DNA of 64,000 bases from Doris montereyensis (taxonomy: Eukaryota > Mollusca > Gastropoda > Nudibranchia > Dorididae). A program made the position numbers and the translations under genes. Within the stretch, counting starts at the first letter, position 1. Each line of letters starts with the position of its first letter. Location: the NCBI GenBank assembly GCA_037039925.1, contig JAXRKP010000409.1, forward strand, positions 189,501 to 253,500, read 5' to 3'. Shown piece by piece: positions 42,190-54,100 of the stretch. The notes under the pieces were generated by a model. The model searched no databases and was not told the DNA's origin. It saw only the letters and a list, made by a program, of their open reading frames with translations.

Positions 42190-45100
42190 GTTAGTTTTTC
42201 GGATTTTGATTCACTGTGATGTATTTATATGTTAAATCAGTTAATGTATAAACTTTAACATGAAATCGATGATGAGCCGTAAAGTGGATATCCATTGATG
42301 ACACTTGCATATCATGTGCCTCAGGTGTTCGGTGTAGCCTCGTCGGCTGTGTTCAAAAGGGTCCTTCAGCTTTATACTCTCATTTTGTTTACATCATGTA
42401 CATCTACCTTTTTGGCAATACGAGGACTCCAAAAACTGGACACATACTTTCGACATTTCTGATCCTGAACCCCCACTCCACTCCCTCCCCCAATGACACC
42501 GGCCAGTCAGTGTACTGTAGCCTCGCAATAATCTATCCTTGCTATTGGGCGACATGGACCTCTAACTCGCACACATGTTCCCTGACAAGTGAAAATTGAT
42601 GGAATATAATCTAGACCTATGAAACATTGATAAATACATTTGTCACCGGCAAAACAGTGTGGTGGTATGAGTGATTCTCAGTGAGAAACCGCGGAGAAGC
42701 AGGCACAGCAGAGAGAATCTAGATATGACTGAAATGCATGCTAAGTGTTCGCTGTTCTCTATAAAATGAAGAATGGTCAATCAAGAATAAATGTAAGCGA
42801 TCAACGGATATAGAGTTATGGATATAAGATGACAGGAAAAAGAGCCAGAGAGCGAGGAGAGTGTGGGAGAAAGACAGAAAAACTCACAACAAAGATCTGA
42901 GGGTTGTTGGCAAGTGCTGCTGATAGATCTAGGTCCAGGTCCTATTACTACCCACTGGTTTTGTCAGATCTACACAAGATAGATTCTAGTTAGATCTAGG
43001 TATTGAGACGGAAGTCTATACTGAAGATAATTATGTTAGTATTACCAATAGGGTTTAAATAGTAGGCCTATAATAAGATTGAATACTATAGTAGGCACAT
43101 CTTGACAAGACTAGAGACTAGGTATTATGGTAGGGCGGCGGATACCAATTCAATTAGACAGTTACCAGGATTTGCATCCCGATAAGCCTTGCTTTTTAAG
43201 AAATGATTCTGGATTGTTGCTTAGTGCTGGTCATAAGCATCAAGAATGCTATTTGCCATTCAATTGGAGATCTAGATAGATCTATATGAAATTGACAACA
43301 GGTGGAATATAATCTCTCTACATACTGTGACTACTGCCATTTTTAGATCTAGATTCATGATTATCAAGCTCTAGTTCTAGCAATCATGTTTCAGAAAATT
43401 CACATTGATGTTGTTCCTCTACTTTGTTGCAATCTTAGTTATCTGTATTGGTCATTGGTATAAGATCTACTGTCCTCTTTTATTATTTTTTGAAACAATT
43501 TTAATGTCATGAACTATTTCTTGGCTTTAGGGGTTCGTGAAAGTGGTGAAGAACAAGGCTTATTTCAAGCGATTTCAAGTCAAGTTCAAGAGGAGGCGAG
43601 GTAATTTTGGTTCTTTCCTTTCTTTCTTTTTTTTTTTAATGCTGATTCCTTTATAAAGTTTTTTACGTTACCATTTCCTGTTGGCTATTGTATTCTTTTA
43701 TCATAAAATGCAGCCAAGTAGTACTTGCCATTTTTAAAGAACCCATTTACTGAGTTTTATAGCTTGATGTACTGGTAATAGCAACAGTGGTATGGTAAAC
43801 AAAATAGTGCGAGTCATAACATTGATTTCTTGTCTCATCGTTAATTCCATTCATTTTGAGAAACTCAGCTAAAATGCGTATTTAAACTGTTGGTTTTCAG
43901 GTTTTCTGTCGATGAATCTTTAATTAGTTTCTGAGCATACGTTGTGTGACTTCATTATTGTTGTGTTTTACACTGTCATCAATTTTGTAAACTGTGTGAC
44001 ATGCCGTTTTGGCGCATGGTTTCCTCCAAAATCACTTTCTCCGATTCTCACCTATAACACTCTACAGAGGGCATAACTGACTACTATGCCCGTAAGCGCC
44101 TCATTTTCCAATCCAAAAACAAGTACAACACCCCCAAGTACCGCATGATCGTCCGATTTACCAACAAGGACATCATTTGCCAGGTAAAAAAGAAATTTGA
44201 ACTGCTTCTCTCTAGTGTAAACAGATCATGGTACATATTTTATGTATGCCGGTATATCTTTTTACATTAGGAAACAGGGCCCCATTTTTTTGTAAAATTT
44301 ATGGACATATATTTTTTTTTGAATGTTTGTTTTTTACCTTTTTTTTTACTGCATATTATTTTAATGCAGCGTATATGCTTTTTCAAACTTATTTTATTGA
44401 ATTAAGAGATGTTTTTTATTGTCCATTTTTTCAGACTTGCCTCAAATTGAGTCTAAATTGTTTGATTTTTATATTTAAAAAAAGTTTCCGATGAGTGTAT
44501 TATTAGAATTACCGTATGATAAAGACTGAAAACTATTTTTGCACCTGAGGAAACAGCAAGCGTGAAATGGCTTAAGTTTTCTTTTACTGGACACTAAGAA
44601 ACATAATATGTCATCATGGCGTCTAAGAAATTGTTTGATGCTAGTGTTGAAATTGGTAGTGTGTGCTGAATTTTATGTTTTCCTCCTTTTAGCCTTTCTT
44701 AGTGTTAAATCAACTTAACATTATGTATCATTTTGAATTTCGAAACAAGTGCGATACAGTGCGTAAATTGCGTTTCTATGATTTGTTTTATATGTCAGGT
44801 TTGTTTGATATAGAAGTTTTGTGTGAAGCAGAATGGGAGTTTTGTGTTTGAAAAGACGTCATGAATGTGTGCTATGAGATGGATTTCATCAAGTTTGTAT
44901 ACAACTAGTACTAGGCTGCCAGGAGATGATTAAAATAACTACAAGCTTCTTGTGGAACTTCATTGTGGTTTGGGCGTGTCATGCCATATAAAATTAGTCA
45001 ACCTCTAGTTAATTATTTCAATGTTCTTTGGTTTAAGTTACTGGTATCATCTACAAGTGGTTTTGAAGATTTTGTTGAATGTTGACAATAGATTGAACGT

Positions 45101-51100: not shown

Positions 51101-54100
51101 AATTACCGTTTGATATAAACTGAAAATTAATTTTAGCACCTGAGGAAACAGTAAGTAGGATGTTATCAAGTCTAAAATTTTACAAAAAAAGTTTTTGTTG
51201 AGATGCTTAATAAATAATAGCTTGTGACCTCCATACCCCATGTTGATTGAAACATTGTGATAAGAGAACGCAAACACAGTGAGAGGCTAGAAATAAACTT
51301 GTCACTGTGGTAAAAGGAGATGGTGGAGTCGTAGTGGACTGAAAGTTAGTTGGTGTAAAAAGAAATGGATGTTGGCGTTGCAAAAGATGTAGTGATAGGG
51401 AGTGTCGGTATGGAAGTAGGTGGTATGCAAAGGGCTGGGGGTGAGACGGGTTAACAGCGAAAGGCTTCAAAATCATTATCAATAAGGTATCGGTCGACTC
51501 TCGGACAGTCCATGCCGTTTATTTTGAATTGTGTTTGGTATTCTGTGTCACTTCTATTTATTTCAACTTTTGTTTCCTATGATGAGTGTTTTATTGGAAT
51601 TACCGTTTGATATAAACTGAAAATTAATTTTAGCACCTGAGGAAACAGTAAATGGAACGCCACATTTCGTCGTTTGAAATAACATAAAATTTGCATCTTC
51701 GTCCAGATCTAGAACCTAGTATAAATAGATCTAGACACAGGGAGATACAACATAGGCTTTTGAAGATGCCATGGCAGCTATTTTCCCACAATTTTATGAT
51801 GTATATATTAAAATAAATTTTGTCATATATTTATTGTTGATTCACATGTTTAGATAGATAACATTTATATTTTATTTGTCAAAGTCAGCATGTACTTCTT
51901 CTGCTGTCACTATACAATGAATAGCATAGGACATATTAGCAGGAGTTAAACGCCTCATTTCTAGCTTTGTTTCTTTTTAGAGTTTAGCATGTACTGAATG
52001 TACCATATTTTAAGTTAAAGTGTGCCATGTATGTGTTGAATTATTTCATTGTTTGGTGTAGATAGATTGTTAATAGTATCAACTGAAAGCATTCTAAAGA
52101 TCATATTTTCCTATGATGAGTGTTTTATTGGAATTACCGTTTGATATAAACTGAAAATTGATTTTGACACCTGAGGAAACCACACATTGGGAACAATATG
52201 TTTGATAATTTTTCTTTTGACTCTTCGTTTAGCAACTCTTTCATTTCCTTGCTTCAGGGAAGTACTTATTTTGTTGACACTCGTGGATCCATTGTCTTCA
52301 TGTTCATTCTCACGTCTTACGTAAGTTATTCTGTTTTGAATTTTCAGATAGCCTACGCCCCGTATTGAAGGTGACTACATCATCTGTGCTGCCTATGCTC
52401 ATGAGTTGCCTCGTTACGGCGTGAAGGTCGGGTTAACCAATTACGCTGCCGCATACTGTGTCGGCTTGCTTCTGGCCAGAAGAGTAAGTGTCAAGGCAGT
52501 CACCCGCTAGCCATTGCTTGTTGTCTCGAAGAAGCTTTCTCACAGCATCCATTAAATTGATGTTAGCTTTTGATGACAGGGATTTGCTATAGATGTAAAG
52601 GAGAATGGACAATAGCAACTTTTCCATGCATGTCTTTGCACTTTGCTTTAAAAGGCCAGCGATCTGTGAACTCATTATTCACCGTAAATGGGGTTATTTC
52701 AAATTGAATGATCAGTGTTTTCTGGAATGTTACAGATGATAATTTGAGTCTGTTGGGTTTGGTTGTTTTTTTTATTTGAAAAGGTTGGCTATGCCTCAGT
52801 TTTTTAAATGTTTTTAATCCTTTTATTACTCACATCAGATTAATCCGTATAGTCGTTTTGTTTGTTTTGAGCCCTTGTGTCACAAATAATAAATGCCATC
52901 TTGTTTTTCCCCAATTGTCAGATGTTGAGAAAATTGAAGCTTGATGAGATCTACCCAGGTCAAAAAGAAGCAAATGGAGAAGAATTCTATGTTGAAGATG
53001 TTGACGGCTCACCTGGAGCTTTCAGGGCCTACCTGGATGTGGGTCTGGTGCGCACCACCACTGGTGCCCGTGTCTTTGGTGCCCTCAAAGGTGCCGCTGA
53101 TGGAGGCATTGATATTCCTCACAGGTACTTTGATCCTTTAGTCCTTCTGTCTCTGGCAGTGTGTGCAGTGTGATGACGATCCTAAGAGTTATCAAGTTTT
53201 CTACTATCTGAAATTATTTGCGTTTTAGTTTATGTTTGGGGTTGTTTGGGGGGGTTTTCTTTTATCCTGTAAGAGGATGTTCACAATTTATCTTTGAAAT
53301 AGAGCAGGGACACTTGATAGTCCAGAGGCAAGGTGTTGGCCTCTCAACCAAAAAGGTTAGGGGTTCAAATCCTGGCAGGTTGAAAAGTGTTTTCGAGTAC
53401 AAATACCCCTATGTCCGGGTTGGTGGACCGATGCCTAGTCCCATCAGACTCGATTAAAAAGGAAGTCCTTGGTGCAGATCACAACACTTGGCACACGTTT
53501 AAAATTCCATGGCTGTTTACAGGACAGTCCGGGCAAAATTAAAAATCCTACCGCCGTCCATCAGATCACTTTTAGTTCTGGACATGGGTAAGATCGAATC
53601 TAATGAATTTTAAAAAAATGGAGTATGATCTTCAGTTAAAGCTGTTCGTTTTTCTTTTAAGTTTTTACAGCAGCTTGAAGTGAGAAAGAAGATAAACAAG
53701 AGACACCACATTATGCCATTATTGTTTCTTGTTTGTTTTCAGCACTCGCCGTTTCCCTGGATACGACACTGAAAGTAGCCAGTACAAAGCTGAAGTCCAC
53801 CGTGACCACATCCTGGGTAAACATGTAAGCAACTTCATGTCCCACTTGTCAGACAATGATGAGGAGGCCTACAAGAGGCAGTTTTCCCAGTACATCAAAC
53901 ATGGACTGACCCCAGCAAAGGTAAACCCTTTCTCAACCTCTGCTAGCTAGAAATTAGAGTTAATTTTGTCTTCTTCCCATGTAAGGATTTTCAAACATGA
54001 TGTTGAATTTCTTTAAGATCCATAGGATTTTTTCTATGATTTTTTGCTAGGTTTTTTTTCTGGGCTCTGGCTGCATCCCTGAATCTGCCTGGGGTCAGCA

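Follow-up and report, generated by a model that had tools for sequence, protein, structure and literature searches.

Eleven sense copies of one box C/D small nucleolar RNA, ten of them intact, in a single RPL5 intron of the nudibranch Doris montereyensis

The intronic small nucleolar RNAs (snoRNAs) of animals mostly occur one per intron and are matured by trimming of the debranched lariat, according to a review (PMC11028025). In chicken most new snoRNA paralogs arise in adjacent introns (PMC2653536), and in sponges snoRNA copies are duplicated in neighbouring introns, with RPL5 intron 3 hosting SNORD24 (PMC3412847). A set of guides from distant eukaryotes shares one target position in the 18S ribosomal RNA (18S): AtsnoR77Y (Um580), HBII-135 (RF00571, clan CL00057; Um627) and snR77 (RF01181, CL00057; Um578) are placed in one target row (PMC3511168), Dictyostelium CD21 (Um571) is listed beside them for the same position (PMC8817022), and snR77 is given as the guide of yeast Um578 (PMC5344495). 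Here we describe a 64,000-nucleotide (nt) stretch of the D. montereyensis genome (assembly GCA_037039925.1, contig JAXRKP010000409.1, positions 189,501 to 253,500 of the forward strand; hereafter the window), in which intron 3 of the ribosomal-protein gene RPL5 carries eleven copies of one box C/D snoRNA unit of 71-75 nt, all in sense with the gene (+ strand), ten of them intact and the first decayed. The initial annotation of this window had claimed such an array, and its premise that animal introns mostly hold one snoRNA each agrees with the review (PMC11028025).

The copies, numbered c1 to c11 along the intron, are listed in Table 1 with their host intron and its flanking exons. Copies c2-c11 all have the box C ATGATGA, the box D CTGA and 5-8 base pairs (bp) of terminal stem, so that 10 of the 11 qualify by sequence as box C/D snoRNAs, for which RUGAUGA and CUGA boxes closed by such a stem are diagnostic. 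The stem, CTGTTTCC/GGAAACAG, is 8 bp long in c2-c10 (c9 and c10 including a single T.G pair) and 5 bp long in c11; the GTTTCC/GGAAAC stem of the initial annotation is corrected to these lengths. By eye, the putative D' box TTGA that follows the guide is invariant in the 10 intact copies, and a C'-like CTGAAAA, which matches only 4 of the 7 letters of the C' consensus, is invariant in all 11. Copy c1 lacks a proper box C, its four changes consisting of two in box C (where a 3-nt deletion removes the start), one in the guide and one in D'. Allowing at most one mismatch, the window contains the guide word TTGGAATTACCG 11 times, compared with 0.30 expected, a number never reached in 100 shuffles. 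The covariance model derived from the copies gives them 91-111 bits, and its next-best match in the window stands at about 14.1 bits. A strict search of the two strands for box C, box D and a stem of at least 5 bp counted 10 matches in all, compared with an average of 0.2 and at most 2 across 30 first-order Markov windows; this comparison concerns the count only. The positions come from a scan with a looser box C, which returned c2-c11 and, on the minus strand, a match at 63710-63645 with a non-strict box C. Chance clustering of motifs was excluded by the shuffles, the Markov windows and the gap in model scores. The eleven copies in one RPL5 intron, their coordinates and the ten with intact boxes are confirmed as initially annotated; no other strict candidates were listed by the box and stem scan in the remaining RPL5 introns. 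In the 513-Mb assembly, where the window lies on contig C2846, the 18-mer TTGGAATTACCGTTTGAT, with at most one mismatch, was found at least 10 times in forward orientation, always within the array, and 0 times in reverse; these counts are lower bounds that do not reach more divergent copies, and the reversed control pattern was found once.

Table 1. Coordinates of the snoRNA copies, the RPL5 features around them and a candidate hidden exon (positions in the window; a slash in splice sites marks the exon boundary)
Feature	Position	Strand	Remarks and basis
c1, decayed	44484..44554	+	4/27 box/guide columns altered; duplex -13.7 vs -18.4 kcal/mol
c2, intact	45135..45208	+	box C 45142-45148; guide 45158-45169; D' TTGA 45170-45173; C'-like CTGAAAA 45180-45186; box D 45199-45202
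c3, intact	45940..46013	+	box/stem scan, copy alignment
c4, intact	46639..46712	+	box/stem scan, copy alignment
c5, intact	47378..47451	+	box/stem scan, copy alignment
c6, intact	48580..48653	+	74 nt identical to c2; box/stem scan, copy alignment
c7, intact	49219..49292	+	box/stem scan, copy alignment
c8, intact	50290..50363	+	final member of tandem block; box/stem scan, copy alignment
c9, intact	51075..51149	+	flanks unrelated to other copies, one short weak match apart; box scan, flank comparison
c10, intact	51572..51646	+	same as c9 over 86 nt, flanks unrelated; repeat and flank comparison
c11, boxes and guide intact	52106..52180	+	terminal stem 5 bp, without external stem; box scan, stem-extension test
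RPL5 exon 3	44068..44183	+	5' of array
RPL5 intron 3, array host	44184..52347	+	8,164 nt; CAG/GTAAAA after ...NKDIICQ; TTTTCAG/ATAGCC before exon 4; exons via tblastn with Biomphalaria RPL5
RPL5 exon 4	52348..52483	+	3' of array; +1 frame shift in run of four C
Candidate hidden exon, 111 nt	50434..50544	+	between c8 and c9; box D of c8 followed at 76 nt by a 3' site-like sequence (11.3 bits); 5' site-like CTG/GTAGGT (8.1 bits)

The D' guide UGGAAUUACCGU pairs with the 18S at 12 of 12 positions, including one G.U pair that extends the 11-nt complementarity reported in the initial annotation, with a duplex energy of -18.4 kcal/mol; c1 retains 10 pairs. Within the 18S target CGGUAAUUCCA, the D'+5 nucleotide, counted by hand with TTGA as D', is the U after GCGG, the position addressed by guides of the CL00057 group. 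The same count supports the assignment made from the start to human U627 and yeast U578, and the nucleotide coincides with the published Um627/Um578 site. It lies beside the position of the decoding-centre G530 of Escherichia coli. The target is also present in the assembly's own 18S fragment, a 170-nt match to RF01960 (91.5 bits) on the minus strand of contig C3287 (8241-8410), which was the sole 18S place found by one pattern search of the assembly; the fragment is apparently a dispersed piece of ribosomal DNA (rDNA), and the full rDNA may be absent from the assembly. A conserved second guide in the D-side arm appears unlikely, because 3 of the 4 positions adjoining box D differ among the copies; the variants preceding that box are ATAC, GCAT, ACAG, GCAC, AGCAC and GACAC. 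The best Rfam family for the copies is the plant snoR77Y (RF01178, clan CL00057), with 38-42 bits for 10 of the 11 (E values of 1.9e-5 to 1.9e-4 in a 10-kb scan and 1.2e-4 to 1.2e-3 in a 64-kb scan), and 24.4 bits for c1 (E 0.62, 10-kb scan). Other weak Rfam matches to the array (SNORD79, snoR53Y, SNORD34 and others) have lower scores and were read as generic box C/D similarity. We regard the array copies as guides of the SNORD65/snR77/snoR77Y type and target, SNORD65 being taken here as a synonym of HBII-135.

Copies c1-c8 lie in tandem units of about 0.7 kb, partly within a 1.85-kb repeat that holds an inserted stretch foreign to the array. Over the 200 nt upstream of the copies, differences range from 0/199 between c4 and c6 (with 2 gap positions) to 16-18% between c2 and c3-c6, c1 being more distant, and the tandem block has therefore grown over time. 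Copies c9, c10 and c11 resemble one another solely in the snoRNA itself and in a few bases at either edge. Apart from a short match (E 0.005) linking the downstream flank of c8 to the upstream flank of c9, no similarity appeared when their 400-nt flanks were compared with one another and with the flanks of c1, c2 and c8. The identity of c9 and c10 over 86 nt points to recent copying or conversion, which is likely for this pair. As judged by eye, c9-c11 carry no A-tail and no clear target-site repeat as marks of retroposition. The inserted stretch itself is present in two copies 1.85 kb apart (47467-48247 and 49320-50120), with a relict at 45308-45381, and looks like a mobile-element piece that was co-duplicated with the snoRNA units.

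Conservation among the copies was compared with that of their surroundings in five of the eleven (c2, c3, c4, c6 and c8), which have homologous upstream flanks, those of the others being truncated, gapped or unrelated; the flank used is a 95-nt stretch that stops 8 nt short of each copy. In this set none of the 27 columns of the boxes and D' guide vary, nor do any of the 14 of the terminal stem, as opposed to 6/33 in the other snoRNA positions and 20/90 in the upstream flank. The boxes and guide thus differ from the flank (p = 0.006), while the rest of the snoRNA does not (p = 0.80). Across all ten intact copies the contrast between boxes and guide (0/27) and the other columns (12/34 varying) is stronger (p = 0.0006), with 3 of the 14 stem columns varying, through c11. 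For the 86 nt downstream of c2, c3, c4 and c6 the contrast was less marked, with 11/86 columns varying compared with 5/74 in the whole core. A comparison that took in the farther upstream flank, with 63/169 flank and 6/74 core columns varying and rates of 1.23 and 0.33, was discarded as unsafe, the flank of c8 being non-homologous there. Copy c1 is changed in 4 of the same 27 columns and therefore has the look of lost constraint. The possibility that simple gene conversion has kept the boxes alike in the tandem copies was rejected, because the remaining core positions are as variable as the flank.

Taken on sequence grounds, selection appears to have preserved the boxes, guide and stem, and idle drift of all copies is unlikely. 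Of the initial proposal that one guide was multiplied either for dosage or by drift, the multiplication stands, and the drift option, if taken as pure drift of duplicates without a role, is disfavoured by boxes, guide and stem that are invariant while the remaining snoRNA varies like flank; a dosage role of the array is plausible, and the conservation pattern leaves it unproven. A more moderate form of drift, in which one or two copies are needed and the rest arose too recently by tandem duplication to have decayed, their number bringing no benefit, was also considered. The decay of c1 and the absence of upstream differences between c4 and c6, which makes some copies very young, are in line with it, and constrained drift of snoRNA location and copy number has been proposed before, in the available text of PMC3511168. 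We nevertheless consider it unlikely, as the other snoRNA positions have varied at the flank rate while boxes, guide and stems have not, and as c9-c11 retain boxes and guide though the similarity of their flanks is undetectable.

The number of copies raises the question of how they would leave a single intron. Intronic snoRNAs usually lie about 65-85 nt from a 3' splice site, in mammals 70-80 nt, and Hirose et al. are said to have found in 2003 that external stems allow splicing-independent snoRNA assembly in mammals. Pairing past the terminal stem was compared with 3,000 random intron flanks: by energy it stands out in c2, c3, c4, c6 and c7 (p 0.021 each), c5 (0.009) and c9 (0.019), the results for c2-c7 not being independent because of their shared descent. 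Copy c11, which has no external stem, is the one nearest the 3' splice site. Sequences resembling 3' splice sites, scored with hand-entered matrices, follow box D at 76 nt in c8, 66 nt in c10, at position 51707, and 83 nt in c11, at position 52258, and make up 3 of the 7 sites of about 8 bits or more; their positioning has a circular-shift p of 0.001, for a distance window set with the data in view. Both the external stems and these splice-site-like sequences are leads only.

The latter would fit an arrangement similar to that of GAS5, with hidden non-coding exons dividing intron 3 and placing some snoRNAs at the usual distance from a 3' splice site. The three sites belong to three of the four 3'-most copies, sites of at least 11 bits number 3 compared with 0.7 in simulation, and a matching 5' site yields the candidate exon after c8 (Table 1). 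At 8 bits, however, there is no excess of such sequences (6 vs 5.9 in simulated introns), no site of at least 5 bits lies 60-90 nt after c1-c7 or c9, and the site at 52258 combined with a 5' site at 52321 would leave an intron of 27 nt; with the hand-entered matrices also counting against them, hidden exons seem improbable. A further alternative is that the intron is trimmed to the outermost small nucleolar ribonucleoproteins (snoRNPs) and persists as a giant sno-lncRNA (snoRNA-ended long non-coding RNA), a long multi-snoRNP RNA instead of ten free snoRNAs. Two snoRNAs per intron are the stated condition in mammals, in the available text of PMC4234469 and PMC11028025, and intron 3 holds eleven where at least two would do, provided that no hidden exon splits it. 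The sno-lncRNAs in those same portions of text carry two snoRNAs, and here the upstream spacer varies freely (20/90 columns, five copies), which the working parts of the snoRNAs do not; such a fate therefore strikes us as distinctly unlikely for this intron.

The explanation that we favour, and regard as probable, is that the animal counterpart of SNORD65/snR77 was amplified in cis into an array, whose copies would be kept as several of them contribute output. Its observed basis is the anatomy of the copies, the match to the target and the conservation confined to the working parts; beyond these we infer the following course. The RPL5 pre-mRNA would carry ten apparently working box C/D copies, on whose boxes and terminal stem the C/D core proteins fibrillarin, NOP56, NOP58 and 15.5K would assemble in every case; the D' arm of each would pair with the 18S at CGGUAAUUCCA, and fibrillarin would 2'-O-methylate the U adjoining the G of the 530 loop (human Um627, yeast Um578). 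Most copies probably mature regardless of their distance to a splice site, aided by stems running past the terminal stem. Within c1-c8 the number of copies would have risen through tandem duplication of units of about 0.7 kb and 1.85 kb, and c9-c11 would have been added by copying that was older or involved short segments; the resulting number would have been retained since several copies add output. A bolder version, in which RPL5, though a gene for a large-subunit protein, is a dedicated dosage locus for one 18S methylation guide with all ten copies selected, most of them maturing via external stems and endonucleolytic release (or hidden exons) outside the route measured from the splice site and jointly setting the level of the 530-loop mark in this lineage, is tentative and on balance rather unlikely.

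Several points weigh against a cis-amplified, output-contributing array. The terminal stem shows no compensatory pair change, and covariation is absent in its 7 pairs. All snoR77Y scores are below the family's gathering score of 52 and no Rfam family passed gathering in the window, which is why we speak of type and target and do not claim formal membership in RF01178. Judged by energy, which also counts the outer terminal-stem pairs, the extension of the stem is weak in c8 (p 0.06) and c10 (0.11), while c1 (0.47) and c11 (0.78) show none; when pairs are counted instead, c5 and c9 alone are notable (0.025), with 0.37-1.0 for the remaining copies. The column tests of conservation ignore the tree that relates the copies, and constraint on c9 and c10 is less certain because their 86-nt identity shows that copying or conversion acts too. 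Lastly, RPL5 exon 4 contains a frame shift, so that the locus may be a non-coding RPL5 copy, or the shift an assembly error.

The frame shift is due to an extra base in a CCCC run (52348-52372), with frame 1 reading IAYAPY-stop and frame 2 continuing as RIEGDYIIC; it is likely an assembly or read error, because the remaining RPL5 exon pieces found are open. Apart from residues 65-67, which drop out of the tblastn coverage at this point, the gene (RPL5, uL18; + strand) is near-complete, with exon pieces at 43531-56512 covering residues 2-291 of Biomphalaria RPL5. The product pieces match uL18 chains of the PDB with an E value of 3e-46, and among 120 of 2,722 matches listed the closest named ones are the gastropods Plakobranchus, Biomphalaria, Elysia chlorotica and Bulinus, all of them heterobranchs, at 81-83% identity. 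The top 3' splice-site-like sequence of intron 3 (12.0 bits) lies 90 nt before the start of exon 4; the segment between them, 52258-52347, is in frame and stop-free by eye, which makes the site a possible alternative exon 4 start. Elsewhere in the window, open reading frames at 9682-10571 and 21306-22195 resemble, by eye, reverse-transcriptase and endonuclease pieces of elements without long terminal repeats (non-LTR), and others at 30210-31363 resemble an XRCC2-type RAD51 paralog. A 75-nt inverted repeat, 81% complementary, at 54160-54367 overlaps sub-gathering Rfam matches to MIR408, mir-9201 and snoR125. ARAGORN found no tRNA in the 64-kb window; a tRNA-like stretch with A- and B-box-like words, seen by eye at 53296-53470, is possibly a short interspersed element (SINE).

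Ten intact copies of a single guide in one intron constitute a natural test of how several snoRNPs exit it, the candidate routes being endonucleolytic release, assembly independent of splicing, hidden exons and persistence as one long RNA with many snoRNPs. The array also raises the question of whether snoRNA gene dosage limits one 18S mark that is common to human, yeast, plant and Dictyostelium. With frozen working parts, a remainder that varies like flank and the decayed c1 as a control, the question can be answered with standard small-RNA and RiboMeth-seq data.

Among the guides of the same target, SNORD65/HBII-135 of human (RF00571) shares the U (Um627) and the clan CL00057 with the array according to the source text available, and is likened to it by target and clan, not by letters; RF00571 is not among the Rfam matches, from which overlapping matches of the same clan were dropped. 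The plant snoR77Y shares the guide word UGGAAUUACCG, a full-length alignment (38-42 bits) and the target U (Um580), although the part of the copies from D' to D aligns poorly. The yeast snR77 was compared by target (Um578) and not by letters, and an intronic array of eleven copies goes unmentioned for either of these two in the available text. As to gene organization, the cis-duplicated paralogs of chicken and sponges (platypus and nematodes are also named) likewise arose by tandem duplication within a host gene, the sponge hosts being ribosomal-protein genes, but they sit in adjacent or neighbouring introns, whereas here eleven share one intron (PMC2653536, PMC3412847, available portions). 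The third RPL5 intron of sponges likewise holds a box C/D snoRNA, but SNORD24 has a different guide (28S), the available text mentions no array, and the likeness is one of intron number only (PMC3412847). Introns giving rise to sno-lncRNAs (the SNORD116 region, RPL13A and SLERT) likewise hold more than one snoRNA in a spliced-out intron, in what is available of those sources, but these are two snoRNAs at the ends, as opposed to eleven of one kind here. The literature matches listed (titles and abstract starts) include no snoRNA array in RPL5 or in a mollusc, nor any other animal intron with eleven copies of a single guide, which is weak evidence of absence because most subscription papers lie outside the search. 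Arrays of the SNORD115/116 type contain many C/D copies of the same type, in separate introns. Cis-duplication of snoRNAs itself is well described, and the new part of this locus is that a single animal intron holds the same guide in eleven copies.

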